Shown here: piece by piece, positions 1 to 36,801 of the stretch | Layout: each line of letters begins with the position of its first letter | How positions within the stretch are numbered: the stretch's first letter is position 1 | Virus record (IMG/VR): IMGVR_UViG_3300035698_000064 | Coordinates: 1 to 42,708 of that record | DNA from: a virus | Strand: one strand, 5' to 3' | Length of the DNA stretch: 42,708 nt | Notes under the pieces: generated by a model | The model's database searches: none | What the model was told of the DNA's origin: nothing | Seen by the model: only the letters and a program-made list of their open reading frames with translations | Program-made: the position numbers and the translations under genes

Positions 1-3000
1 ATGGCATTCAAAAGAGAAGATCAATACGCAGCTAGCGGTAGCACAAAGCTCTGGAACGCATGGACTCCATACGTTAGTAAGTTCGATACATCCTCCTTCT
101 ACAACTGGGAGCAGGACAACCTACCTCTGTACGACCTAGAGGAAAGAACTTATGAAGCATGGGAGCAGCTTGGATTCCCAACTTCCTCTGTTCCAGGCAT
201 GGCCCTTACCGTATCTGCTGATGCTGGTAACACCGTGGAAGGACAGGCCCAACTCCTAGCTGAGAGCACGCTCTTTACTGATGTTAGTTCAGCCATCGCT
301 GCTATCCCTAAGGTAGTACGCTTTCCTGTTTTAGTTGAGGTAGGAAGCTTCGGTGATCTAGGTAACATGGAACTCCACAACTTCCGTATTGAGGAAGGTG
401 GCTCCATTGAGATTATCAACAGAAACGCAAGTAAGTTCTACTCTGCCTCTTCTACAGTCAACAATGTTGCCGCTGGATCCGTCTATAACTCCAGCCACGA
501 TCTTATCAAGAGGGTAGACTCTCTGGATCTAAGCAATACTTTCACAAACGCTTCCTGTGTTCACTTAGGACTATCCCTTCTGAGCGGAACTGATGATTCT
601 AGATTCGGAACAGGCTATGCTTTTGCACACCCACAACACACCCTAAGAAGGGGTACAGTTGCCTTCGGATATAGTGTTGGTACTCTAGATGGGAACATCT
701 TTGATTGGAGTCTATACGAGAACACCGCAGGAGGGGCCACATATAATGATGATACCTTACCCAGCTATGACACTTCTACTTACGATGCACTCAATAATGA
801 CTACCCTACTAGGGGCCAAGTAGATAGTTCCGATAGCGTCAAGGGAGTTGTCTATAACAATGTAGCTAGAAAAATTAGCATCAAGAACTGTGACGGTCCC
901 ATCTACATTAGGGGGTTCGTTGTCGATGGAAACATTACCTCTGTAGATGATGGCATCTCAGTTATCAACTCTGATGTTGTCTTGGAAAACTGTGCTGCGA
1001 TGCGCTGTAACGAAGCTGGATTCAAGTTCCATAACTCTAAGGTTACGCTTTCTAGAACAGCCTGTTCCTACAGAAACTACAAGTTAACTGATAGTGCTAC
1101 TAGAGCAGAGGAGACAGGGGTAGGATTCCACGCTGTCAACAGTGAGGTTACTGTTAGTGCTCTACTACAGCCAATTCTTTCTCTTGATGGCCCCGCTGAT
1201 TTCGGTGCATCTGGTGTAGACGTAGCTGTAATGGCTTCCCGTAACTACCTAGGCTTCCTACTGGAGAACTCCAAGCTAGTAGGTGGATACCGTAGAGACT
1301 CAGCCATCAATGAGACAACAGGGGGACTACTCCTATCAGAACTGAACTATGGCGCAGGACTAGAAGCCATCAATTCTCAGATCAATCTCAAAGGACAAAT
1401 AGATTTCTATGGTAACGCTAGAGGGCTAGACCTACTTGGTACTACTGTTAGAACAGAGAACCTCTGCGTAGACTTCACTAACACTGAGGCCCTTAGAGCA
1501 GCTAACTCCCGTGTTGAATTCGATTCAGTAGTTAGCCCAGCCCAAGCTGGTCAAGCCTCTAGAGCACAGTTTGAGTTTAGTAAGAACGGACAACATATCC
1601 TCCTTAGGAACCAGAGTGAAGTTACCTTCCGTAGGAAGAACCACCTTCCTGCTATATATGGAAACAGCTTCTTCCTAAGTTCTTTCGGAACTATTACTTG
1701 GGATGGAGCTAACAGGAATAACCTTCCCGGCGTTTCCGTTGAGGATCAGTCCACCATTGAGCTAATCCACCCTAAGATGGTTGCTCACGATTCTGTTGTT
1801 AGGAATTCTGCTGACTACGGGCAAATACTAAGAGCAGTAAACGGATCCAAAGCTAGCCTATTCGGTACTGCCGCTGGTTGTAACTTTGTTTGGGGACCAA
1901 GAACCTATAACAGGCAACAGTTCGCCGCTGGTCTATATGCTGGTAGAGGTTCGGAACTAAACCTTCACGGTCCTACAGTTATCGCTCAGTATGGTATCGA
2001 TGCTCTAGTTGAAGACAACTCAGTAATTAATATCGAGCCACACAGAAGTAGGTCAGGATACGGTCTAGAAGTAAGTGCCTTTGATCTCAGTGCCCAAGCT
2101 AACCACACTAGCGTAGAGCTTCACTCAACCAGAGCGTGCCTTGTAGCTAACCGTAACTCAGTTATCAACCTACAGGATCTAGGTTCCTACACTCTTCACT
2201 GGCCTCGTACAGGAAGAGGAGGTAACCTCCTGGCTGCTGGGGCAGACTACAACCTGGGTTCAACAGGATTTGCCTCTAGTGGACTTACCGCTTATGGCTC
2301 CCTACAGTTCTTCCCCAACCCATCTGATTCAAAAATCGTTACTCAGAATGATCTAGATGATCTCATCTCTGGTGGAGTAGCTGCTAGCGTCCCAGACTTT
2401 CCTGTCTTTACTGCTGCTACCGACATGAACACCTTCCTAGTAACTGACGATCCCATTGGTGGATCAACAGACACAGCTACTAGAGGACTTGCTTCGTTGG
2501 GTGGAGTTTGTCTAAGAGCCGCAGGAGATAGTGTTGTAAACGTAAACAATGTACACTTCCCCACTGGCAACAACGGTGGATTCATGGACGGTCTCTTCTA
2601 CGATGCTAGTGGAGATAACTGTCACCAGCTAATGATTTGGAACCTAGCGGACACCTCAAAGCTGAACGCCTCCTTCCTATCTGTTAGTGGAATGTACCCA
2701 GGCAACTCAACCTATCACGGACCAAGTGCTATGTACGTTTCCTCCAACACCCTTGGATCAAACGATACGGAATACGTTGCTGCCTCTGGAGCCCCCTCCT
2801 CTACACCTGATACTGGAACCCTATCTGTCCTAGACCCTTTCGGTGCTGGTTCTGCTGTGGGTATCTGGAACCTTCCTGTAGGAGCAACGATCAACTCTCC
2901 CTTCAAGAGATATCATCCAATAACAGAAGCCTTCAACGAAGCTACCCCTAGTGCTCTAGCTGGAGCAGGAGTTATCGTTAGTGCTAACGCTGCTATGCCC

Positions 3001-3585
3001 TTTGGATTTGATGGAAGTGGTTCCAACACTGGTCCCTTCAGAATCTACTGGTCACCAAAGCCATCCTCTAAATTCCTCGCTGTTGACCTCAGTGGTTATC
3101 AGTACGGTGCATGGAAAGGGGAGTACGCAGGAGGAGATGATTTCTCAGGATATACAGGTCCAGCGTATCAAATCTTTTCACAGGGCTATAATATGTCGGC
3201 ACCCGTCTCTGCCCTGCTGTTCGATGATGGCAACTCAGTAAGCTCTGTCTACCCAGACCTAGTTAAACTAAGCATTGACTCAGACGGTGATGGCTCTTAC
3301 GATAAGCTTTGGACCTCAGGCTTCTATTACTGTTCTGAGTTCCTAGACGACGACCCCCTTCAATGTATGCTAGATGAATCAGCATCAGACGCATTCCAGA
3401 ACGCTAAGAATGCTTCTACTGGAACCTCTGGCAAGCCTAAAAGGGTAACTATATACAGATCAAGAGAAGACGATAGTGGTGACGCTAGCCCCTCTAACAG
3501 AGGATCAGAAGCTTACCAAGGGGACAGAGATCATACGGTTGGATTCAAGTCCGCAAACATTTTCGATCTTCGGAGAGATAACTAA
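1..3585 (+). CDS. Large virion protein, beta-helix-like (probable tail/baseplate or fibre protein)
   Basis: This is a 1194-residue protein whose ATG is the first base of the window, so a start further upstream cannot be excluded. The N-terminus (residues 33-48) carries the signature FYNWEQDNLPLYDLEE, which recurs in related form in the next gene and probably docks the protein to the virion. From about residue 290 to 800 the sequence is a long series of short strands rich in N, S, V and G, with ladder-like repeats of the form NSxV and LExxxA, as expected for a parallel beta-helix like those of phage fibres and tailspikes. No catalytic motif is visible. The stop overlaps the next start (TAATG), so the first three genes form one translationally coupled unit. 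The structural role is inferred from size, fold pattern and context; the exact virion position is not known. Confidence 0.7.
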   Translation: MAFKREDQYAASGSTKLWNAWTPYVSKFDTSSFYNWEQDNLPLYDLEERTYEAWEQLGFPTSSVPGMALTVSADAGNTVEGQAQLLAESTLFTDVSSAIAAIPKVVRFPVLVEVGSFGDLGNMELHNFRIEEGGSIEIINRNASKFYSASSTVNNVAAGSVYNSSHDLIKRVDSLDLSNTFTNASCVHLGLSLLSGTDDSRFGTGYAFAHPQHTLRRGTVAFGYSVGTLDGNIFDWSLYENTAGGATYNDDTLPSYDTSTYDALNNDYPTRGQVDSSDSVKGVVYNNVARKISIKNCDGPIYIRGFVVDGNITSVDDGISVINSDVVLENCAAMRCNEAGFKFHNSKVTLSRTACSYRNYKLTDSATRAEETGVGFHAVNSEVTVSALLQPILSLDGPADFGASGVDVAVMASRNYLGFLLENSKLVGGYRRDSAINETTGGLLLSELNYGAGLEAINSQINLKGQIDFYGNARGLDLLGTTVRTENLCVDFTNTEALRAANSRVEFDSVVSPAQAGQASRAQFEFSKNGQHILLRNQSEVTFRRKNHLPAIYGNSFFLSSFGTITWDGANRNNLPGVSVEDQSTIELIHPKMVAHDSVVRNSADYGQILRAVNGSKASLFGTAAGCNFVWGPRTYNRQQFAAGLYAGRGSELNLHGPTVIAQYGIDALVEDNSVINIEPHRSRSGYGLEVSAFDLSAQANHTSVELHSTRACLVANRNSVINLQDLGSYTLHWPRTGRGGNLLAAGADYNLGSTGFASSGLTAYGSLQFFPNPSDSKIVTQNDLDDLISGGVAASVPDFPVFTAATDMNTFLVTDDPIGGSTDTATRGLASLGGVCLRAAGDSVVNVNNVHFPTGNNGGFMDGLFYDASGDNCHQLMIWNLADTSKLNASFLSVSGMYPGNSTYHGPSAMYVSSNTLGSNDTEYVAASGAPSSTPDTGTLSVLDPFGAGSAVGIWNLPVGATINSPFKRYHPITEAFNEATPSALAGAGVIVSANAAMPFGFDGSGSNTGPFRIYWSPKPSSKFLAVDLSGYQYGAWKGEYAGGDDFSGYTGPAYQIFSQGYNMSAPVSALLFDDGNSVSSVYPDLVKLSIDSDGDGSYDKLWTSGFYYCSEFLDDDPLQCMLDESASDAFQNAKNASTGTSGKPKRVTIYRSREDDSGDASPSNRGSEAYQGDRDHTVGFKSANIFDLRRDN

Positions 3586-6128
3586 TGGCTGAACAACAAT
3601 TTGAAGATAGCTCGTATAGGTTCTCTGACCCTATTAGATTCTTTAAGGCTAACGATCCTTACTACTTTGAGGTAGACAACATTCCTCTTAAGCAGCTACA
3701 GGAGAACTGCCAATGGCTTAAGGATCAGGTCAGAAAGACCGCTATAAAATTCACAGGAGTAAAGCGTGGGGACATTGATGAACTCAAGCCCTATGCTACA
3801 GGAGGAGATAGAAAGGTTAGAGTAAAGCCTGGTCGTTACTCTGCTCGTATCAATGATGCAGCTACCAAAGATCCTCTTGGCTATCTTCAGAAGGTAATGG
3901 GCGAAGCTCTAGGTGATGTAGATGCTTGGGCTGCTGCCACCGCCAATACCGGAACCTTTCCTGCGGGAACCGTTCCCTCCTATAACACCCTACTGTCAGA
4001 GTCTCTAGATAGATTCAAAAGCTCTCTCTCTCAGGATGCTCTAGGTATGACGGGTCTTGTAGGCAGAGCCTTCACTTGGCCTATCGTTAATGTAGACACT
4101 CCAGTAGACTCGGATGGTGTTAACCTGGATAGTACTGTAGGCTACGTCAAGTATAGCTCTAGTAACAACCCAGGTAACGGAGTAAGTAATGTACCCGCAG
4201 TAATTTCTCAAGCTATTACTTGGGCTAAGAGTGTTGGTAATAGTGCTCAGAGCTATGCTCTCCCTTCCTTTGAAACTACAAATCCTAACAATGGTTGGGC
4301 TAAGTTTCCTCTAACGGAGGCTTACTTCATTAACAAGTGGAGAGGCGTCTCTCGTCTAGCCATCGTTGATGTACCTGATGAGATTTCAATTGAGGTTCCT
4401 GCTTTCGATGCAGCAGACTTCAACTACATTGATGAGTTCGGAGACGAGCAGACTGTCGATGGCGTAGAGCAGCGCATTGATCTAGTCTTCATTTACTCCA
4501 AGCCTATTGACGCTTCCTCTACTACTATCCTCAAGCCCTCCGGTAAGGCTGTTATCACTAGCCCACAACTGGGTATTGTACGAGGAGCAGGCATTAAAGT
4601 AAACCTCTCAGATAAGCAGGACTTCCAATACGGACACCAAACTGAGGTATCCGATGAGCACAAGATCCTAGCCTCCCCTGGAGACCAAGAGAATGCAGAC
4701 ATGGGCTTCCTTGCTACTTCAGCTAACGATATCGCTAACGATGTCAGAGGCAGTTTCCCATCCCCCGATGATATCCTCAACCTCGCTCCACTCATTTCAG
4801 AGAAGCTTGAGGATGAGGCTATTGAACTAGTCGGCCAGTCCATTCTACCTGTGGCCTACGTTTGGGTAAAGAGTACTGGTAGTGAACTAACAAGTGGTGC
4901 TATCCCTATCCTTAGCACAGACGTAGTTGATATTCGTCCCTTCTTTAGAACAGCGGAGCTAGCATACAACGAGAGGGCTGGTATCGGTGGTGCAATGCCA
5001 CAGCTATCCCTAGCTAATCCTGCTGTCGGAAAGTCTCAGCTAGACTACGAAAGCAAGAGGCTATATGATTACTTCAACAACAAGATTAATGCGGTAGCAG
5101 ATCAGACTGGTCCTGAGGACGAGATGACAACCTTGGCTGCTGGCTATGTCTTTGGTGGTTGGAACTTTGGGCCTGAGGGGACACTGTTCGACTACTACCA
5201 AACTCAGTTCGGCGCTGACGATGCTGACGTAAATAACCCTGATGGTATCCTAGGAGCCGATGTACAGGCTATTAGGCAGTACGTTCTAGGTAAGTATGGT
5301 ATTGGAAGTAATGGAGCACAGGTTACCATTCCCTCCTACCCAGACTGGGACTTAGCTCAGTGGTGTATCCAGCAGGACGTTGGCGATAAGGGTCTCTACC
5401 CTAATGATTACATTAACACATTCTTCTCTGCTAAGAATGGCACAGGTCAAGATCCTTCTATCGTAGCAGGTAGCTACAGTCAGATGGTATTCGAAAACGG
5501 TACTACTGAAGGTGGTGGTTCCCCTGGAAGACTACAGAACTTCGACAACAACGAACTTAACGCTGGGGCTAATGTCTCAAGAGTAAACTTCCACTACGTT
5601 GCCAAGCGCATTAAGTTTAATCGTCAGGCAGTACCGTGGCTAGGAGATTATAAGGTTGATGTCAACTTCGTTAACTGCCTACCTCAAGTTCAGAGTCAGC
5701 AACAAGCTGCTTCCTATCATGGTTGGTGGGTAGAAAAAGGTTTCGATGAGTTCACTATCTATATTGCTTTCTCGGCTAACGACAACAACGCTGCTGGTAG
5801 TTCACAAACTCCTAGGTTCCCTGCTCCCCACTCCCTCTCCTTCACCACATCAGGAAAGAAGAAGAAGACAACCTCTGTCCTCAACGTATCAGACAGAGCG
5901 GGTGAAAGATTCAGTTCGTTTGTTGTCCCGGTATCTGATATCCTAAATGCTAACACAGATCCAATCGGTGAAGGTGCTGGAGCAGGCTATGTTGGAAACC
6001 CACGAATAGGAAAGTGTACTTACCCCTCTATTATGTGGAGTATTACAGGTATTCCTGTTAACACCGCTACCTACTTCTACGGAAACCTTAATAGTACCAA
6101 CCCCACTATTTCACTGAAGAGTAGCTAA
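3585..6128 (+). CDS. Large virion structural protein with shared N-terminal docking motif
   Basis: This is an 847-residue protein coupled to both neighbours by TAATG junctions. Residues 26-40 (YYFEVDNIPLKQLQE) match the N-terminal motif of the preceding protein, and the first 50 residues resemble the N-termini of large structural proteins in T4-like marine phages, as far as I recall the family. The middle is rich in N, G, D and Y without low-complexity repeats, which suggests several beta-rich domains. No transmembrane segment, coiled coil or enzymatic motif is apparent. Position between two other giant virion proteins and upstream of the head genes argues for a baseplate or fibre-attachment component. 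It could equally be an adhesin carrier. The call as a structural protein is fairly secure; the specific function is not. Confidence 0.65.
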   Translation: MAEQQFEDSSYRFSDPIRFFKANDPYYFEVDNIPLKQLQENCQWLKDQVRKTAIKFTGVKRGDIDELKPYATGGDRKVRVKPGRYSARINDAATKDPLGYLQKVMGEALGDVDAWAAATANTGTFPAGTVPSYNTLLSESLDRFKSSLSQDALGMTGLVGRAFTWPIVNVDTPVDSDGVNLDSTVGYVKYSSSNNPGNGVSNVPAVISQAITWAKSVGNSAQSYALPSFETTNPNNGWAKFPLTEAYFINKWRGVSRLAIVDVPDEISIEVPAFDAADFNYIDEFGDEQTVDGVEQRIDLVFIYSKPIDASSTTILKPSGKAVITSPQLGIVRGAGIKVNLSDKQDFQYGHQTEVSDEHKILASPGDQENADMGFLATSANDIANDVRGSFPSPDDILNLAPLISEKLEDEAIELVGQSILPVAYVWVKSTGSELTSGAIPILSTDVVDIRPFFRTAELAYNERAGIGGAMPQLSLANPAVGKSQLDYESKRLYDYFNNKINAVADQTGPEDEMTTLAAGYVFGGWNFGPEGTLFDYYQTQFGADDADVNNPDGILGADVQAIRQYVLGKYGIGSNGAQVTIPSYPDWDLAQWCIQQDVGDKGLYPNDYINTFFSAKNGTGQDPSIVAGSYSQMVFENGTTEGGGSPGRLQNFDNNELNAGANVSRVNFHYVAKRIKFNRQAVPWLGDYKVDVNFVNCLPQVQSQQQAASYHGWWVEKGFDEFTIYIAFSANDNNAAGSSQTPRFPAPHSLSFTTSGKKKKTTSVLNVSDRAGERFSSFVVPVSDILNANTDPIGEGAGAGYVGNPRIGKCTYPSIMWSITGIPVNTATYFYGNLNSTNPTISLKSS

Positions 6129-9100
6129 TGCCTGATGGGATTACGTTTGATTGCGGAGACTTCTTACCAGGATTAGGGCCAAATAATTTCCCCGATTATG
6201 ACCCTAATGGTGATGATGTATTAGTACCCGACGATGATGTCGATGTTCCTACTTGGACTGCTAGGCCAGTAGACGATGGTGGTGGTCCCCCAATTCAACC
6301 TGGCCCTGATCCTGTACCCAAGCCTAGTGACCCTCCACCACCACCAGGCCCAGGAGTGCCTGGCCCACAAACAGGTATTCCCTCAGGGCCAGCACCTCCT
6401 CCCCCAGGTCCAGGACCAATCTCCCCAGGACCACAAGGCCCAGCAGTACCAGGCTCAACTGACAAGTGTATCTGTAGGGTCCAAAATCCTCCAACCGTAG
6501 AAGTAAACTCTTCAACAGGTGGGGATGCTAATGGACTGGGTAAGTACTATAAAGTATGTTGGGAACAGAAGTGTGAGTCTTTCCCTGCTAATGAAGATGT
6601 ACCTCCTGATACCTCAGTAGATGATTACGCTACCGCTGTAGGTTCTCAGGGAGCTAGGAACATTACGGTAGAAGGAACTCAGGGTGGGAATTGTAAAAAG
6701 AACGGAGCTTGCGGTGGTGATTGCCCCGAAATTTGTCTTAGATACTTTGTCCCTAGAGATATAGAAGACATTCCCCCAGGACCAATTGACACAGAACCTC
6801 CTGGTCCGGGACCGGATCAGCCCGGTGGACCCCAAACAGGTATCCCAGGAGGCCCTCTACCCCCACCACATGTTCCTCCCCCCGGAGTTGTACCTGGCCC
6901 ACAAACAGGTATTCCCCCTGGCCCCGCTGGTGGAGGTGGTGGAGGACCGGGAGGTCAGCCTGGTCCACAAGGAGAGATTGACCCTGGAGTTCTAATCATC
7001 CCTGATCCTGGCCCCACTATCTCTCGCCCAGGCAATCAAGGCGGTATCGGTGGTGGATTAGTACCTGATCCCCCTCCTGGTGGAGGTGGTATTAACCCTG
7101 GAGGAAATCAAGGCGGTATCGGTGGTGGATTAGTACCTGATCCCCCTCCTGGTGGAGGAGGAACTAGCCCTGGAGGAAATCAAGGTGGGATTAGTGGTGG
7201 ACTAGTACCCGATCCTAAGCCTGGTGGAGGTGGTATTAACCCTGGTGGTCTTCAGACTGGCTTTGGAGGTATCATTGTAACTGATGATGGACCCCTAATT
7301 TCAGGAGGTATCGGTGAGGGTATTCCTGGAACCCCTGGAGGTGGGGGCTCTGGTGATAACGGCATTACTCCAGGAGGTAACCAAGGAGGTGCAGGAGGCA
7401 TTCTTGTAACTGATGATGGTCCTCTTACCTCTGGAGGATTAGGAGAAACCGGAACCATTGGCACACCAGGGGGTAATACTGGTGGAGGCATAACCTTTGG
7501 TGGAAACCAAGGTGGTATTGTAGGAGGGAGCACCGAAGGAGGTTCCACAGGTGGGAATAACCCTCCTATCAGAGACACTGAGGGTGGTGGTTACCAGGAA
7601 GGCTTGGGGGCTTTCGGTGCTGGGTACGACTCCTCTCAGAACGAGTTAAACCTCAACGACCCTAGAGTACAAGAGTACTTTGCTAGGAAGAGACCTAGCG
7701 GTATTTACGATCAAGACATCGCTATCCAGGGAGGTAGCTTCAGTAATAAGTTTGTCCGTAATGACGTAGGGCACTCTGGTATCCTAGGAGACTACATCCA
7801 TGAAAGCATCCAATACATTCTGAAGAACAATAAGTTCTGGAAGGATTGGGATAGTCGTCCTGTATTTGATATTACAACCGACAACATTCTTCACAGTCTA
7901 GACCCCCAATTCTATGCTACCTGTAAAGACATCAGGAGAGTAGGAGGAGATCGCCTAACCGATTACGATATCGCTAGGATGGTGGGGAGTAGGATTGTAG
8001 ACGGCACCCTCGGTAGCATACGCAACGAGTACCTTGTCAAGCTATCTGATAAGGGTAGGAAACGACAGCCGCTCGTTATCCGCTCAAGTAGTAATACTAC
8101 AGTCAATGAGATGGCCGCTCTCTCATTAATCGAGAGGTCTTACCTCCCCCTAGACCCAAGCAAAGCTAAGGGGTTCGCTAGCAATGTACTTCCTAATTGG
8201 AAGATCCTTTCTACCGATATCGCAAAACACATTCCTATTGAAGTGAGTGGAGTCATCGTAAAATACTATGTAGGTGACACTGATTTCTTCCTAGCAAGAA
8301 AGACCCTCCGTATTGAGGATGGAGACTTCATTACTTGTGTGGTTAATGGTAGTCCTGTACAACTGTATACTAATTCAGAGAAGGATCATGCATTCCTAAT
8401 GGACTCAGCAACCAGGCAACGTGCTCTGAAGCTACTAGGGTCTGATGGTAAGAGTACCCTAAGCGTAAGCTCTATGTCCTCCGATGAGCTAGAGTTCAAC
8501 TACTCTCTGAGTTCACCCAGGCAAGATTATTATGTTCTAAGCTGTGTACTTAGCTCCCTACAAACAGTACCAAGTTTAGGTGCCAATAACGTATCTAATT
8601 TGGTAAAAACTACTACTGCTAGATACGAACTGATGGATAGTACTACCTCTGCTGGCCTAAGCTCTATCAATGATTACATTAAGTACAAGGCGAATAGTAA
8701 GACACTCATCCTGGATGATGACGATAGGATCCTAGATTATATTGAAAGCACTAGTGCTATGGAGTACACACAGGATGATATCCTTTTCGATGCAGCTAAG
8801 ACTAATAAGAAAGTCCCCCTGCTCACTAGACAAATCCCTTGGTACATTGTGGTTTATCCAACCAACAGGTTCGAGTACAACATCCACAACTCTAAGTCTA
8901 AGGTTACAGTCTATGAACCCTCTGGGATCACGCAGAGAGAGCTAAGAATGTCCCCCTCTATTGATAACGTCTTCTCTAAGGGCAAGAGTAGAAACTTTGT
9001 TCGCCTAGAAAATGGTTACCCTAACTCAACCAATGTATACGGCAAGTGGGATACCCAGGCTAAGATCTCTAGGATTGAAGATAACATGACTGCCTTCAAG

Positions 9101-9559
9101 CAAGGATACAGGGTAGCAGGAGTAGTAGGTTCGGCTAGTGTGCTCAAACCTAAGCGTAAGAGAACAGGCTTTCGTCTACTGAAAGAAATTATCTCAGAAA
9201 TCAACAGGAACTATCTCCTAGATGATGAGGGACTAGAGGTAGGTCTCAATACCTATGACGTATTCTCTCGCATGAATATGAGAGAGTACAATAGCTTCCT
9301 GTCCCTAGAGAATGCCTCCTATCTACTCAGACAGATTAAGAATGGAGCCATCGAAGGCATTAAGCTATATAACCCCATCAGGAACGCTGGTAAGAACGCT
9401 ATCAAGAAGACTCGTATTGTCCAGAAGAAGAGTACAGCAGGGGAGGATACCTTCCTTCCCATCAAGAGTATTCAAGGTGGGACCATCGTACAGCCTCCTG
9501 GAACTACATTCAATTCCAGCCAAATTGTGCCAAGCACAACGAGACCTCCTATACGCTAA
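6128..9559 (+). CDS. Large virion protein with Cys-rich insert and Gly/Pro repeat linker
   Basis: This 1143-residue protein has three visible parts. Residues 1-110 are acidic and then proline-rich. Residues 114-203 form a small Cys-rich domain with eight cysteines (C114, C116, C144, C149, C189, C195, C199, C203). Residues 215-490 are Gly/Pro-rich, with PQTGIP motifs and three 24-residue tandem repeats. From about residue 500 to the end the composition becomes normal, consistent with a folded C-terminal half that may be the virion-attached or catalytic part. The Gly/Pro stretch probably acts as a flexible or extended spacer; it is not a strict collagen G-x-y repeat. It is coupled by TAATG to the preceding structural gene. 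I do not recognise the C-terminal domain. Confidence 0.65.
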   Translation: MPDGITFDCGDFLPGLGPNNFPDYDPNGDDVLVPDDDVDVPTWTARPVDDGGGPPIQPGPDPVPKPSDPPPPPGPGVPGPQTGIPSGPAPPPPGPGPISPGPQGPAVPGSTDKCICRVQNPPTVEVNSSTGGDANGLGKYYKVCWEQKCESFPANEDVPPDTSVDDYATAVGSQGARNITVEGTQGGNCKKNGACGGDCPEICLRYFVPRDIEDIPPGPIDTEPPGPGPDQPGGPQTGIPGGPLPPPHVPPPGVVPGPQTGIPPGPAGGGGGGPGGQPGPQGEIDPGVLIIPDPGPTISRPGNQGGIGGGLVPDPPPGGGGINPGGNQGGIGGGLVPDPPPGGGGTSPGGNQGGISGGLVPDPKPGGGGINPGGLQTGFGGIIVTDDGPLISGGIGEGIPGTPGGGGSGDNGITPGGNQGGAGGILVTDDGPLTSGGLGETGTIGTPGGNTGGGITFGGNQGGIVGGSTEGGSTGGNNPPIRDTEGGGYQEGLGAFGAGYDSSQNELNLNDPRVQEYFARKRPSGIYDQDIAIQGGSFSNKFVRNDVGHSGILGDYIHESIQYILKNNKFWKDWDSRPVFDITTDNILHSLDPQFYATCKDIRRVGGDRLTDYDIARMVGSRIVDGTLGSIRNEYLVKLSDKGRKRQPLVIRSSSNTTVNEMAALSLIERSYLPLDPSKAKGFASNVLPNWKILSTDIAKHIPIEVSGVIVKYYVGDTDFFLARKTLRIEDGDFITCVVNGSPVQLYTNSEKDHAFLMDSATRQRALKLLGSDGKSTLSVSSMSSDELEFNYSLSSPRQDYYVLSCVLSSLQTVPSLGANNVSNLVKTTTARYELMDSTTSAGLSSINDYIKYKANSKTLILDDDDRILDYIESTSAMEYTQDDILFDAAKTNKKVPLLTRQIPWYIVVYPTNRFEYNIHNSKSKVTVYEPSGITQRELRMSPSIDNVFSKGKSRNFVRLENGYPNSTNVYGKWDTQAKISRIEDNMTAFKQGYRVAGVVGSASVLKPKRKRTGFRLLKEIISEINRNYLLDDEGLEVGLNTYDVFSRMNMREYNSFLSLENASYLLRQIKNGAIEGIKLYNPIRNAGKNAIKKTRIVQKKSTAGEDTFLPIKSIQGGTIVQPPGTTFNSSQIVPSTTRPPIR
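7031..7246 (+). repeat. Three tandem 72-bp repeats (24-residue Gly/Pro unit)
   Basis: Three in-frame copies of a 72-bp unit encode 24-residue blocks that begin GNQGG, pass through GLVPDP and end near GGGG-INPG. The first two copies are almost identical at the DNA level and the third has diverged by several codons. Two longer, related units of about 42-43 residues follow (7247-7502), each beginning G-x-Q-x-G and containing VTDDGPL. Near-identity of the first two copies suggests recent duplication or homogenisation. Confidence 0.85.
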
Positions 9560-19949: not shown

Positions 19950-19956
19950 TATAATA
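19950..19956 (+). promoter_or_regulatory. TATAATA late-promoter-like box abutting a start codon
   Basis: The motif CTATAATAGAACATGG places TATAATA only four bases before the ATG at 19961. The same 16-base context with one base changed occurs at 34919. There is no -35-like element, because the upstream region is the terminator. If transcription starts 5-7 bases after the box, the mRNA would begin at or next to the AUG, that is, be leaderless. No Shine-Dalgarno sequence could fit. Confidence 0.5.
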
Positions 19957-19960
19957 GAAC

Positions 19961-23090: not shown

Positions 23091-23108
23091 AATTCTGATG
23101 GGTCATGC

Positions 23109-23115
23109 TATTATA
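23109..23115 (-). promoter_or_regulatory. TATAATA box on the minus strand before the resolvase gene
   Basis: Read on the minus strand, the sequence is CCTATAATAGCATG, with TATAATA 18 bases before the resolvase ATG at 23090. It therefore probably starts a short-leader transcript for the resolvase. On the plus strand the same site reads GCTATTATAGG and sits 13 bases before the ATG at 23129, so it could serve both directions. Confidence 0.45.
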
Positions 23116-23872: not shown

Positions 23873-23956
23873 GTGAAAGAACTAGAGAAGGATAACCGTA
23901 GTCTCCAAGGTAAGCTTAATTTAATTCTAGCTGTTGTGGATCAGGGCTGTAAGTAA
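23873..23956 (+). CDS. Possible 27-residue coiled-coil ORF or gene remnant
   Basis: A GTG at 23873, preceded nine bases earlier by AAGGGA, opens 27 codons reading VKELEKDNRSLQGKLNLILA and on to TAA at 23954-23956. The frame is open back to about 23832 and has plausible coding character, but no ATG lies in it. An ATG at 23844 just after TATAAT is in another frame and stops at 23876. This may be a tiny gene, a programmed frameshift product or a gene broken by an indel. Its end overlaps the sigma-factor gene's 3' end on the other strand. Confidence 0.25.
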   Translation: MKELEKDNRSLQGKLNLILAVVDQGCK

Positions 23957-24288
23957 TCACGTTTCATCTTAGCTGAATAACCTTCGATCTTCTCATTGTA
24001 CTTCTTATCTTTGGTATACATTAGCTTGAGATTATTTACGATGATAGTGGTGAAGTAGTTGAAAGCTGTTCCCTTCTTAGCTTTGAAGTTTTTTACGACC
24101 TTCAGTACCAAAGCGAAGCACTCTTGTTTTGCATCATCAGACGGTACTTTGAATCTAAATGAATCAACGATGTTTGTGATTAGGAGATCGATCAGCCCGA
24201 CGAACTCATCTTCGTGAGTTTTTGGATCCTCTTGGTATGATAGGATGATCCGTTCGAACTCCTTGTTGTCAATGTAGTGCTTACCCAT
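23941..24288 (-). CDS. 55: Late-transcription sigma factor, T4 gp55-like
   Basis: This 115-residue minus-strand protein looks like the sigma factor for late genes. The key segment is DDAKQECFALVLKVVKNFKA followed by KKGTAFNYFTTIIVNNLKLM (residues 51-90), which matches region 2 of sigma factors (helix, then GxAFxYF-TxIIxN) as found in the gp55 family. It is shorter than T4 gp55 (185 residues) and I see no separate region 4, consistent with recognition of a TATA-type box without a -35 element. It is divergently placed 13 bases from the polymerase start. Its partners gp33 and the sliding clamp gp45 are not in the window. Confidence 0.8.
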   Translation of the reverse strand: MGKHYIDNKEFERIILSYQEDPKTHEDEFVGLIDLLITNIVDSFRFKVPSDDAKQECFALVLKVVKNFKAKKGTAFNYFTTIIVNNLKLMYTKDKKYNEKIEGYSAKMKRDYLQP

Positions 24289-24292
24289 ACAA

Positions 24293-24299
24293 TATAATA
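24293..24299 (+). promoter_or_regulatory. TATAATA box in a 13-bp divergent intergenic region
   Basis: The whole gap between the sigma-factor start (minus strand, 24288) and the polymerase start (24302) is 13 bases, of which TATAATA takes seven. On the plus strand the box ends two bases before ATG; on the minus strand the same AT-rich core lies four bases before that gene's ATG. A bidirectional promoter making leaderless or nearly leaderless mRNAs both ways is the simplest reading. Confidence 0.45.
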
Positions 24300-24301
24300 G
24301 T

Positions 24302-25336
24302 ATGTTGAACCTAGATAAACTCTACTCTAGCCATGATTTAGGTGGAGATGATGGTAAATGTTCCGGCTGCTCAATTCTGAAGCAGTCTAAACCTCGTCAC
24401 TCTATCACAGATTACGATACCCTCCCAGAGAAAGAGATCCTGTTCGTATCTGATTCCTTTACGTGGACCGCTGGGAATGCTAATGCCTTTGGAGCTATTG
24501 AGCAGACAACTCTGAAGCAATTCATTCCCTTCCCTGAGGAGGAGTATACGTTTACTGCTTCTGTGAAATGTCCTAGTGTGAAAGAGGGGGATATGTCTCC
24601 TGAGAACATGAAGATTTGCAGGGGTCATTTGGATGAGACCATCCTTAAGGTAAAGCCTAAGCTGGTATTCCCCTGTGGCAACCTAGCTATGAAGATGCTC
24701 ATTAAGAAGAGTGGTATTCAGAACAAAAGAGGGAAGTCTTTCCCCTTCACTACAGCTAATGGAGAGCATACCTGTACGGTAGTTCCCCTGTACCATCCTT
24801 GGTCTATCAGCCAAGAGCCTCGTCTCCACAAGATGTTCAAGGCTGACCTGATTAACAGCTATGAAAAGTTCATCCTCAACAAGACTAACTACGGCCCTCT
24901 CGAATACAGAGTAATCTACACGGAAGAGAAGCTAGAATACCTGGCTAAGTTCCTTGAGAATTACACTGATAAGATGGCAGTAGACCTTGAGACTACAGGA
25001 CTGGACTTCCTTCAGGACTCCATCCAGACTATCTCCTTTACCCTTAGGGAAGGGACGTTCGTAGTACCTTGGAACCACAAGGACTCCCCCTTCAGAGAAG
25101 GAGAGGGCTCCCACGAAAAGCTCATCGATTGTATGACACGCATCCTGAGCAATCCTTTTAGTCGCAAGATGTATCACAACGTCAAGTTCGACTACAAGTT
25201 CCTCTACCATGCTGGTATCAAGACCGTAAAGATCTGGGACACCAAGCTAATGCACCACACTTACGATGAGGATATGCCCAACAGTCTAATGGACCTCGTT
25301 AAATTCTACTTCCCTAAAGAACTAGAGGAATTCTAG
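24302..25336 (+). CDS. polA: DNA polymerase A part 1: UDG-like Fe-S domain plus 3'-5' exonuclease N-part
   Basis: This 344-residue protein is the first of three pieces of a family A DNA polymerase. Residues 1-190 resemble family 4/5 uracil-DNA glycosylases, with cysteines C20, C23, C90 and C106 in the Fe-S spacing (C-x2-C, then C-x15-C) and a YHP motif at 164-166. The glycosylase GEAPG motif is replaced by VSDSFT, so enzymatic activity is doubtful. Residues 223-344 hold the proofreading exonuclease start: Exo I DLETTGLDF (D228, E230) and Exo II YHNVKFDY (N293, D297). The frame ends in TAG at 25334-25336, immediately followed in the same frame by the ATG of part 2, so the Exo III motif is missing here and lies in part 2. 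Confidence 0.85.
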   Translation: MLNLDKLYSSHDLGGDDGKCSGCSILKQSKPRHSITDYDTLPEKEILFVSDSFTWTAGNANAFGAIEQTTLKQFIPFPEEEYTFTASVKCPSVKEGDMSPENMKICRGHLDETILKVKPKLVFPCGNLAMKMLIKKSGIQNKRGKSFPFTTANGEHTCTVVPLYHPWSISQEPRLHKMFKADLINSYEKFILNKTNYGPLEYRVIYTEEKLEYLAKFLENYTDKMAVDLETTGLDFLQDSIQTISFTLREGTFVVPWNHKDSPFREGEGSHEKLIDCMTRILSNPFSRKMYHNVKFDYKFLYHAGIKTVKIWDTKLMHHTYDEDMPNSLMDLVKFYFPKELEEF

Positions 25337-25819
25337 ATGCTAACTATTCAGAACCCTAAGACATTCGACTGGGCAAATATGTCCCTAGCTGATTGTTGTG
25401 AGGGTAACGCAATGGATACTCACTTCACCTTCAAGCTCTACGAGTTGATGGAAGAGAAGATGATCGACTCCCCCGTATGGAAGTTCCTAGAAAATGTTGC
25501 CATGCCTTCTCTTGAGATTTTCGGAGAGATGGAGTATCATGGTGTTCACGTTAGTACAGAGAGGCTAGAGTCTGTAGGCAAGTTCCTCAACGATAGGAAC
25601 AAAGACCTTGAGGATGCACTTCGTAAGTTCGATTTCATCTCTGAAGAAGACAACCTCTCCTCCAACGAAGCACTGAAGCAAATCTTCTATCTAAGGGAGG
25701 GAGCAATGGAGTTCTACCCACCTGATCGTACCAAAAAAGGAGAGCCTTCCTGCGCTGCTGCTACCTTCACACTTCTACTAACACAAATCAACGAAGAACT
25801 AGAACGTAGGGCATCATGA
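25337..25819 (+). CDS. polA: DNA polymerase A part 2: end of exonuclease plus thumb start
   Basis: This 160-residue protein continues part 1 in the same frame directly after its TAG. Residues 16-40 (LADCCEGNAMDTHFTFKLYE) correspond to the Exo III motif with D27 as the catalytic aspartate; the usual Tyr four residues earlier is Gly (G23). Residues 60-160 correspond to the region between exonuclease and palm in PolA, including DRTKKGEPSCAAATF, like the TKKGxxS segment of A-family polymerases. The ATG directly abuts the previous stop (TAGATG), ideal for termination-reinitiation but with no ribosome-binding site of its own. It ends in an ATGA overlap with part 3. On its own it would have no activity; it should assemble with parts 1 and 3. 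Confidence 0.8.
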   Translation: MLTIQNPKTFDWANMSLADCCEGNAMDTHFTFKLYELMEEKMIDSPVWKFLENVAMPSLEIFGEMEYHGVHVSTERLESVGKFLNDRNKDLEDALRKFDFISEEDNLSSNEALKQIFYLREGAMEFYPPDRTKKGEPSCAAATFTLLLTQINEELERRAS

Positions 25820-26907
25820 GTAAGTGGAAAGAAAGGCAACAGTCTAAGAAGATTAGTGCTGCTGTCATTACGGACAAGTCTACCAAGGAACTCAAGGTAG
25901 CTGCTAGCTTTATCAAAGAGCTTCTAGATCTGAAGAAGTCTCTGAAGCTACAAAAGACCTACATCGTAGGTACACGCGCTGCAATTGAGTACAATGGATA
26001 CAACAAGATCTTCCTGGACTTCCGCTTTGAGGGTACTGCTACGGGTAGACTGTCCTGTGCATCGTACAATGCTAAGAAGCGCAAGGGAGTTTCCTTCCAC
26101 ACTCTACCCAGACCTGATGAGGATGACGACGAGGGTAGTAACCTAGCTTCAAACATTCGCAGCCTATTCATTCCACCTCCTACCTGGGATTTCATTACGG
26201 CTGACTATGCTACGATGGAACTGCGTATCCTGGCTCATATTGCTGGGGAAGAGAATATGCTCAAGGCTTTCCGTAGTGGGGAAGACCTTCACTCGTACAC
26301 AGCTAGACTAGTATTCGGTAAGGAGAAGATCTCCAAGTTCGAACGACAGCTTGCCAAGGCTGTATCGTTCCTAATTGTATATGGTGGTGGCCCATTCAAC
26401 CTAAGTGAGACTATGGGTATTCCTATGCGTCGAGCCGAGGAGATCATTGGAGCGTATCAGACTGTCTACCCTAAGGTCTTCTCTTACATGGACAAGGTAA
26501 ACGACTCCACTAAGATGAGAGGATATGCTGAGTCCATCTTTGGTCGTAGGAGACACCTACCCAACGTAAACAGTAAAGACCTTAAGCTAGTCAACAGAGC
26601 CCTCCGACAAGGACTAAACTTCACTGTCCAGAGCCCTGCCTCGGACGTTCTACTCTGTGCTGTCATTGGTATCACTCAAGAGTTTAAGGAACGAGAGATG
26701 GAAGCTAGGGTAGTAGCAACAGTCCATGACTCCATCGAAGTTGTCTCCCCTTCCTGGGAAACCAGAGAGGCTGCACTCATTGTCAAGAATGAAATGGAAC
26801 AATACCCTGTGCTAAGAGAACGTATGGGCATGGAATTTAGCGTGCCCCTAGTTGCTGACATTGAGGTAGGGGATTCATTCGGAACAGGAAAGAAACTAGA
26901 ACTATGA
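25816..26907 (+). CDS. polA: DNA polymerase A part 3: palm and fingers (catalytic core)
   Basis: This 363-residue protein carries the polymerase active site. Motif A is DYATMELR with catalytic D130 and E135. Motif B is RQLAKAVSFLIVYG with R177, K181, F185 and Y189; Phe at 185 predicts E. coli Pol I-like rather than T7-like discrimination against ddNTPs. Motif C is VHDS with H304 and D305, with Ser where Pol I has Glu. TGRLS at residues 76-80 is the usual template-contact segment. The frame is -1 relative to part 2, and a TAG at 25807-25809 upstream in this frame limits any frameshift to the overlap. It is the replicative polymerase by context (helicase, SSB nearby). The stop overlaps thyX (ATGA). 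Confidence 0.92.
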   Translation: MSKWKERQQSKKISAAVITDKSTKELKVAASFIKELLDLKKSLKLQKTYIVGTRAAIEYNGYNKIFLDFRFEGTATGRLSCASYNAKKRKGVSFHTLPRPDEDDDEGSNLASNIRSLFIPPPTWDFITADYATMELRILAHIAGEENMLKAFRSGEDLHSYTARLVFGKEKISKFERQLAKAVSFLIVYGGGPFNLSETMGIPMRRAEEIIGAYQTVYPKVFSYMDKVNDSTKMRGYAESIFGRRRHLPNVNSKDLKLVNRALRQGLNFTVQSPASDVLLCAVIGITQEFKEREMEARVVATVHDSIEVVSPSWETREAALIVKNEMEQYPVLRERMGMEFSVPLVADIEVGDSFGTGKKLEL

Positions 26908-34919: not shown

Positions 34920-34926
34920 TATAATA
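34920..34926 (+). promoter_or_regulatory. TATAATA box abutting a start codon
   Basis: CTATAATAGTACATGG at 34919-34934 is the same as the 19949-19964 sequence except for one base. The box ends four bases before the ATG at 34931, and there is no Shine-Dalgarno sequence or -35 element. It probably drives the coiled-coil gene and the ssDNA-binding protein downstream as a leaderless mRNA. Confidence 0.5.
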
Positions 34927-34930
34927 GTAC

Positions 34931-36753: not shown

Positions 36754-36791
36754 GAAGCCACCTTTCTCCACTATAAGAGAAAGGTGGCTTC
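36754..36791. terminator. Perfect 15-bp hairpin after the lipoprotein gene
   Basis: The arms at 36754-36768 (GAAGCCACCTTTCTC) and 36777-36791 are exact inverse complements around an 8-base loop. On the plus strand there is no T-run after it (TATTATAA follows), so it is not a textbook intrinsic terminator. It sits between two transcription units and three bases before a TATAATA box, so termination, mRNA 3'-end protection or a regulatory role are all possible. Confidence 0.55.
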
Positions 36792-36794
36792 TAT

Positions 36795-36801
36795 TATAAT
36801 A
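36795..36801 (+). promoter_or_regulatory. TATAATA box before the glycan operon
   Basis: The box lies three bases after a perfect hairpin and five bases before the ATG at 36807 (TATAATACAACTATGG). It is the only apparent promoter for the eight overlapping glycan genes. No ribosome-binding site is present, which again suggests a leaderless mRNA. Confidence 0.5.

Follow-up and report, generated by a model that had tools for sequence, protein, structure and literature searches.

The family A DNA polymerase PolA is the textbook single-chain polymerase. The E. coli Klenow fragment and Bst Pol I each carry exonuclease, thumb, palm and fingers, with motifs A, B and C, in one chain that has no UDG-like domain, and Klenow keeps the tyrosine of Exo III; the phage PolAs of MW202455 (804 aa) and Lysinibacillus phage LysYB1 (891 aa) are also uninterrupted chains and present the same UDG-exonuclease-polymerase order as the locus described here. 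Split phage polymerases have been described as well. The T4-like Aeromonas phages 25 and 44RR have a family B polymerase in two parts, gp43A and gp43B, and in phage 25 the 43A and 43B proteins co-purify with polymerase activity (PMC2988022); their split is associated with either a seg homing endonuclease or untranslated sequence between the two cistrons. The MEP401-type OM43 phages (Zobellviridae) have a two-part PolA, present in most group I genomes of their lineage (PMC10580990). In our alignment its single break immediately precedes motif A, and a small ORF separates the parts; MEP401 gp14 was considered as a third polymerase piece and rejected, as it does not align with polymerase. Another candidate split, the two overlapping ORFs annotated as DNA polymerase I in Rhizobium phage L338C (L003, 3872-6699), was also discarded: its relative P11VFA has one intact ORF, and the two-ORF annotation is probably a sequencing frameshift. 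Splits go unmentioned in a survey of virioplankton PolA genes (PMC6302109), and a three-part PolA was not found in the open-access literature, most subscription papers and all preprints being outside the scope of the search. The original prediction, that split B-family polymerases were known and a three-part PolA was not, agrees with these records; within the literature searched, a PolA in three parts is new, the previously known split phage polymerases being two-part.

The window studied here is a single IMG/VR record of an uncultured virus, IMGVR_UViG_3300035698_000064, at its full length of 42,708 bp. Its capsid and tail-sheath genes are T4-like, and its first part (1-9559) contains three very long ORFs (1194, 847 and 1143 aa) without PHROGs or Pfam match. 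Positions 24302-26907 hold three consecutive ORFs (products p1, p2 and p3) that correspond to a PolA with UDG-like, 3'-5' exonuclease and polymerase parts:

24293-24300, plus strand: TATAATAG element lying shortly before the ATG of ORF1, common to the divergent ORF at 23941-24288
24302-25336, plus strand: ORF1 (p1), 344 aa; cysteines and acids invariant in 82 distinct relatives
24530-24832, plus strand: UDG-superfamily-like domain of p1 (Pfam PF03167, E 1.8e-8; PDB family 4 UDG 4zbx, E 4e-11)
24905-25315, plus strand: N-terminal part of the 3'-5' exonuclease, in p1 (Pfam PF01612, DNA_pol_A_exo1, E 1.1e-15)
24983-24991, plus strand: Exo I, in p1
25190-25192, plus strand: Exo II aspartate, in p1
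25324-25329, plus strand: AGAGGA, Shine-Dalgarno-like sequence for ORF2, within the 3' end of ORF1 and 7 nt before the ATG
25334-25336, plus strand: TAG stop of ORF1, with the ORF2 ATG directly next and in frame
25337-25819, plus strand: ORF2 (p2), 160 aa; Exo III helix and first part of the thumb, approximately E. coli Pol I 483-617
25415-25417, plus strand: Exo III aspartate D27 of p2, equivalent to E. coli D501 (HMMER alignment to Klenow chains)
25816-26907, plus strand: ORF3 (p3), 363 aa; last thumb helix, palm and fingers (DNA_pol_A, E 1.9e-75; PDB, E 6e-59)
26203-26220, plus strand: motif A of p3 (D130 to E135)
26344-26382, plus strand: motif B or O-helix of p3, RxxxKxxxFxxxY (R177, K181, F185 of the Phe762 type, Y189)
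26725-26730, plus strand: motif C of p3, His-Asp (H304, D305)

The locus had been described as three adjacent reading frames; the three ORFs are as described but occupy only two frames, since p1 and p2 share one, with only the TAG between them, and p3 lies in the other, joined to p2 by a 4-nt ATGA overlap. Pfam, PHROGs and Klenow alignments agreed with the predicted order, i.e., Exo I and II in the first ORF, Exo III and thumb in the second, and motifs A, B and C in the third. Although p2 had no significant Pfam match, the three ORFs matched successive positions of phrog_17 (523-785, 795-922 with E 1.6e-7, and 931-1235), and p1, p2 and p3 concatenated aligned end to end with intact PolAs. In alignments with Klenow chains, the first break fell between Exo II and Exo III, at approximately residues 475-482 of the E. 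coli enzyme. The second fell at approximately 617-625, in a loop connecting two helices of the thumb, and from the last helix of the thumb onward p3 runs unbroken to its C terminus. Residue mapping to E. coli was taken from PDB alignments and not from the end-to-end alignment. As with gp43A/gp43B, a phage replicative polymerase is carried by separate adjacent ORFs in a split that is conserved and not degenerate, but this one belongs to family A, has three parts and, in the window, lacks a mobile element at either break. As in the MEP401-type phages (L191), a marine phage family A polymerase is divided into ORFs; the window differs in having two breaks, at Exo II/III and inside the thumb, with palm and fingers intact.

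A near-identity DNA search against phages gave no match for the window, and a scan of viral_contigs with the single p3 protein gave no relative. Relatives were reached through a scan with the major capsid protein, which yielded 69 related contigs, and then through a scan of viral_contigs with a p3 alignment. Clean p3 homologues of 51-68% identity, each a separate ORF, were present in 14 of the 69 capsid-found contigs, and a single IMG/VR scan with the p3 alignment confirmed 351 p3 relatives, the best 80 of which were used for reading junctions. A p1 scan gave 110 relatives, many on contigs already found, and again the best 80 were used. The proteins of these IMG/VR relatives were ~40-68% identical to those of the window. 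The p1-p2 break was present at 71/71 readable junctions of the p3-scan set and 75/75 of the p1-scan set, and the p2-p3 break at 78/78 and 71/71, respectively; with duplicates removed, the breaks occurred at 77/77 distinct p1-p2 and 79/79 distinct p2-p3 junctions. No fused p1-p2 or p2-p3 form was seen among them, so that uninterrupted relatives, the observation proposed as refutation, did not appear, and every readable IMG/VR junction presented the same split instead of one chain. The order p1, p2, p3 was kept wherever the three could be read together. A three-ORF layout in every relative with a readable junction is not a matter of chance.

The details of the junctions varied. The passage from p1 to p2 is in frame in the window and in one relative (L105) and frame shifted in relatives of the TAATG type; 36 of the 77 distinct junctions had a 1-nt overlap, and the p1 stop codon of the relatives was TAA, TAG or TGA. 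From p2 to p3 most relatives changed frame by +1 with an 8-nt overlap, the change being -1 in the window and L105. The genome-collection match to this lineage is a 130,604 bp contig, QCKN01000003.1 (L189 or L126), filed under the Prochlorococcus genome AG-409-P03; it has 4 tRNAs and no match to Photo_RC (the psbA/psbD family), and Prochlorococcus as its host is only suggestive. The lineage is one of widespread, uncultured, mostly marine viruses of bacteria.

The first break is often occupied in the relatives. In 39 of the 77 distinct p1-p2 junctions, 184-2403 nt of unrelated sequence lay between the two ORFs, mostly with antisense ORFs. No mobile element or intervening sequence was found between the ORFs of the window; the original statement that there was no spacer or mobile element therefore stands for the window, but not for the many relatives with spacer sequence between p1 and p2. 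The p1-p2 break looks like a gene-insertion hot spot, with opposite-strand ORFs in L094, L096, L098, L100, L101, L103, L150, L163 and L171, and the inserts include a 166-aa lipoprotein-like or spanin-like ORF and paralogues with a beginning like M..YE.IGESIWDTYR; the insert ORFs tested from this hot spot had no Pfam match. No homing endonuclease was seen in the inserts of the relatives, among which not every ORF was searched. One relative (L183) carried a 200-aa DUF6445 gene (4412-4995) between p2 and p3, and its p1-p2 insert may be an oxygenase-like gene according to our reading of the sequence. In a quick tree of 57 lineage members, in which the placing of long branches is uncertain, well-supported branches showed at least 7 changes between having an insert and lacking one, and neither of the two deepest members (the window and L105) has an insert. 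Hence the split most likely preceded the inserts. Saturation of the outgroup branches left the clade without a resolved deep placement among PolAs.

The catalytic residues were conserved across the breaks. In p1, the Exo I aspartate and glutamate and the Exo II aspartate were invariant in the 82 distinct proteins; in p2, the Exo III aspartate and the start methionine were each present in 73/73 distinct proteins; and in p3, the D and E of motif A, the R, K, F and Y of motif B and the H and D of motif C were invariant in all 75. The claim that all active-site residues are kept holds for these positions and fails for the Exo III tyrosine (E. coli Y497), which is replaced by Gly23 of ORF2, with Gly in 73/73 distinct p2 proteins. 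The exonuclease thus falls short of a standard DEDDy site, with its four acids distributed over p1 and p2 and the tyrosine absent, and proofreading could be weak or altered. Some PolAs have no active exonuclease, so the loss of the tyrosine weakens the assignment to the standard DEDDy type but not membership in PolA, for which palm and fingers qualify by the PF00476 match (E 1.9e-75), the eight invariant motif residues and the structure match (see below). The four cysteines of the UDG-like domain of p1 were also invariant, which suggests, without proving it, that p1 retains an iron-sulphur cluster of the kind found in family 4 UDGs. Changes at codon position 3 exceeded the mean of positions 1 and 2 by 5.2-fold in p1, 6.2-fold in p2 and 5.6-fold in p3, a codon pattern that shows purifying selection on the three ORFs. 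Recurrent breaks, changed frames, intervening genes, invariant catalytic residues and purifying selection together bear out the proposal of a functional split rather than decay.

Structure prediction supported the first junction. For the AlphaFold2 model, p1 and p2 were read through the TAG, with unpaired relatives; the joining was a modelling aid and implies no fusion. The model presented a confident exonuclease, with pLDDT ~83-92 in the Exo III helix of p2, and matched whole DEDD exonucleases over ~205 residues with TMt up to 0.78, a span too long for the p1 part of the exonuclease by itself. Over 245 alignment columns, the model of p3 alone superposed at 1.5 A on the palm and fingers of Bst Pol I. 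Both thumb halves (p2 ~70-160 and p3 ~31-117) were modelled with low confidence, and the p2-p3 interface consequently has no support from structure prediction.

We consider it highly probable that the three separate polypeptides together constitute one family A replicative DNA polymerase, with assembly and activity inferred in the absence of data on protein or activity. That the window is one uncultured IMG/VR record admits a sequencing or assembly error, or a recent pseudogenisation confined to this contig, and error-rich relatives do exist: in one (G039 or L108, resembling L097) frames are broken throughout the polymerase region, and contig 3300003690_000011 has an extra frameshift within p2. 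Recurrence of both breaks in dozens of independent contigs refutes error and decay, and with the invariant catalytic residues and the strong codon-position-3 bias it leaves this explanation practically no credence. Recoding into one chain, by amber readthrough from p1 to p2 and programmed frameshifting from p2 to p3, is suggested by the window itself, where a single TAG followed by ATG separates two ORFs in frame. It is very improbable in view of the relatives, whose stop codon varies among TAA, TAG and TGA, whose p1-to-p2 frame differs, which have up to 2.4 kb with opposite-strand genes between p1 and p2, and in which the p2-to-p3 frame is +1 in most and -1 in others; moreover, TAG is the stop of 8/39 genes of the window, its long ORFs have no internal TAG, and neither the window nor the 130.6-kb relative yielded a suppressor tRNA. 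Group I introns have been reported in other phage polymerase genes and an intronic interruption was suggested for MEP401 (PMC10580990), so that an intron or intein at the breaks, with one chain as mature product, had to be weighed. The 1-nt p1/p2 overlap at 36/77 distinct junctions leaves an intron no room, Rfam found nothing in the window or in six relatives with p1-p2 gaps of 304 to 1565 nt, the inserts, mostly antisense genes, differ from each other, with at least 7 gains or losses on well-supported branches, and no intein-like extension was present at the ends of p1, p2 or p3; we regard removal of an intervening sequence as extremely unlikely.

A further possibility keeps separate proteins but not the shared enzyme: p3, perhaps with p2, would polymerise alone, and p1 would be a free-standing UDG-like/exonuclease protein, the polymerase having shed its exonuclease. 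The distance of p1 from p2 in many relatives, the loss of the Exo III tyrosine, and the fact that the p1 exonuclease region has stand-alone DEDD exonucleases among its best sequence matches favour it. The fourth catalytic aspartate, however, is on p2 and invariant, which leaves p1 alone without a complete DEDD site, and the p1, p2, p3 order is kept wherever readable; we therefore hold a free-standing p1 to be unlikely.

The preferred reading, one polymerase made of three chains, is inferred from the shared active sites and from the precedent of split polymerases. Under it, the UDG-like domain would come from p1, together with the core of the exonuclease (Exo I and II); p2 would add the first half of the thumb and also the Exo III helix, without which the exonuclease site, spanning two chains, would be incomplete; and p3, with the last thumb helix, palm and fingers, would hold the entire polymerase active site. 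The chains are proposed to dock without covalent joining, chains 1 and 2 forming the exonuclease site and chains 2 and 3 the thumb. One early operon would carry all three, each with a separate translation start: re-initiation at a Shine-Dalgarno (SD) sequence and ATG of its own beside the p1 stop would yield p2 or, where genes intervene, p2 would be expressed from its own promoter-like element, and the short stop/start overlap would serve p3. Operon transcription, assembly, DNA synthesis activity and stoichiometry are all inferred.

The start regions agreed with this scheme. An SD-like 4-mer preceded p2 in 27/38 distinct contexts where p1 was adjacent and p3 in 59/73 distinct contexts, against a coding background of 0.14; where p2 followed an insert, only 3/35 had one, and a TATATAG-like element within a few bases of the ATG was common. 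No SD-like 4-mer was found upstream of p1 in any of 69 distinct relatives (0/69), and TATAATAG stood a few nt before the p1 ATG in the window and in most of the relatives' examples displayed. This element occurs five times in the window, just upstream of ORF starts (19950-19957, 23108-23115, 24293-24300, 34920-34927 and 36791-36798), as compared with 1.4 expected by shuffling, and five were reached in 1 of 100 shuffles; several of the ORFs so preceded have no SD. The sites are candidate leaderless phage promoters, without transcription-start data, and, as far as base patterns can tell, the signals fit ORFs that are initiated separately and may be leaderless. The 115-aa ORF divergent from p1 (23941-24288, minus strand) had a weak, below-cutoff Pfam match to sigma-70 region 2 (E 0.0017) and is, by inference, a candidate for a late sigma factor of the phage, comparable to gp55 of T4.

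As for the role of the enzyme, each of nine long relatives (40.7-130.6 kb) had exactly one PF00476 match, p3; none of the nine had a family B polymerase, and no DNA_pol3_alpha was found in the five long relatives tested. The neighbouring genes included ThyX, SbcC/D-like, ribonucleotide reductase, DnaB-like helicase and SSB. A single family A match, no second polymerase of a known type in the long relatives tested and replication-gene neighbours point to a replicative role, and the split PolA is very likely the replicative polymerase, with the reservation that none of the nine records is known to be complete. A p2 with its own promoter-like element occurs in about half of the lineage. It is conceivable, if rather doubtful, that the enzyme is an obligate heterotrimeric replicase in which separate transcription of p2 doses the exonuclease/thumb subunit and so sets proofreading and processivity.

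Annotation pipelines would call such polymerases fragmented or miss p2. The breaks are natural split sites for engineered split polymerases. A whole phage lineage appears to replicate with a PolA cut twice, through the exonuclease active site and through the DNA-gripping thumb, which makes it possible to test multi-chain assembly in family A, the uncoupling of proofreading by subunit, and why the breaks have been retained.
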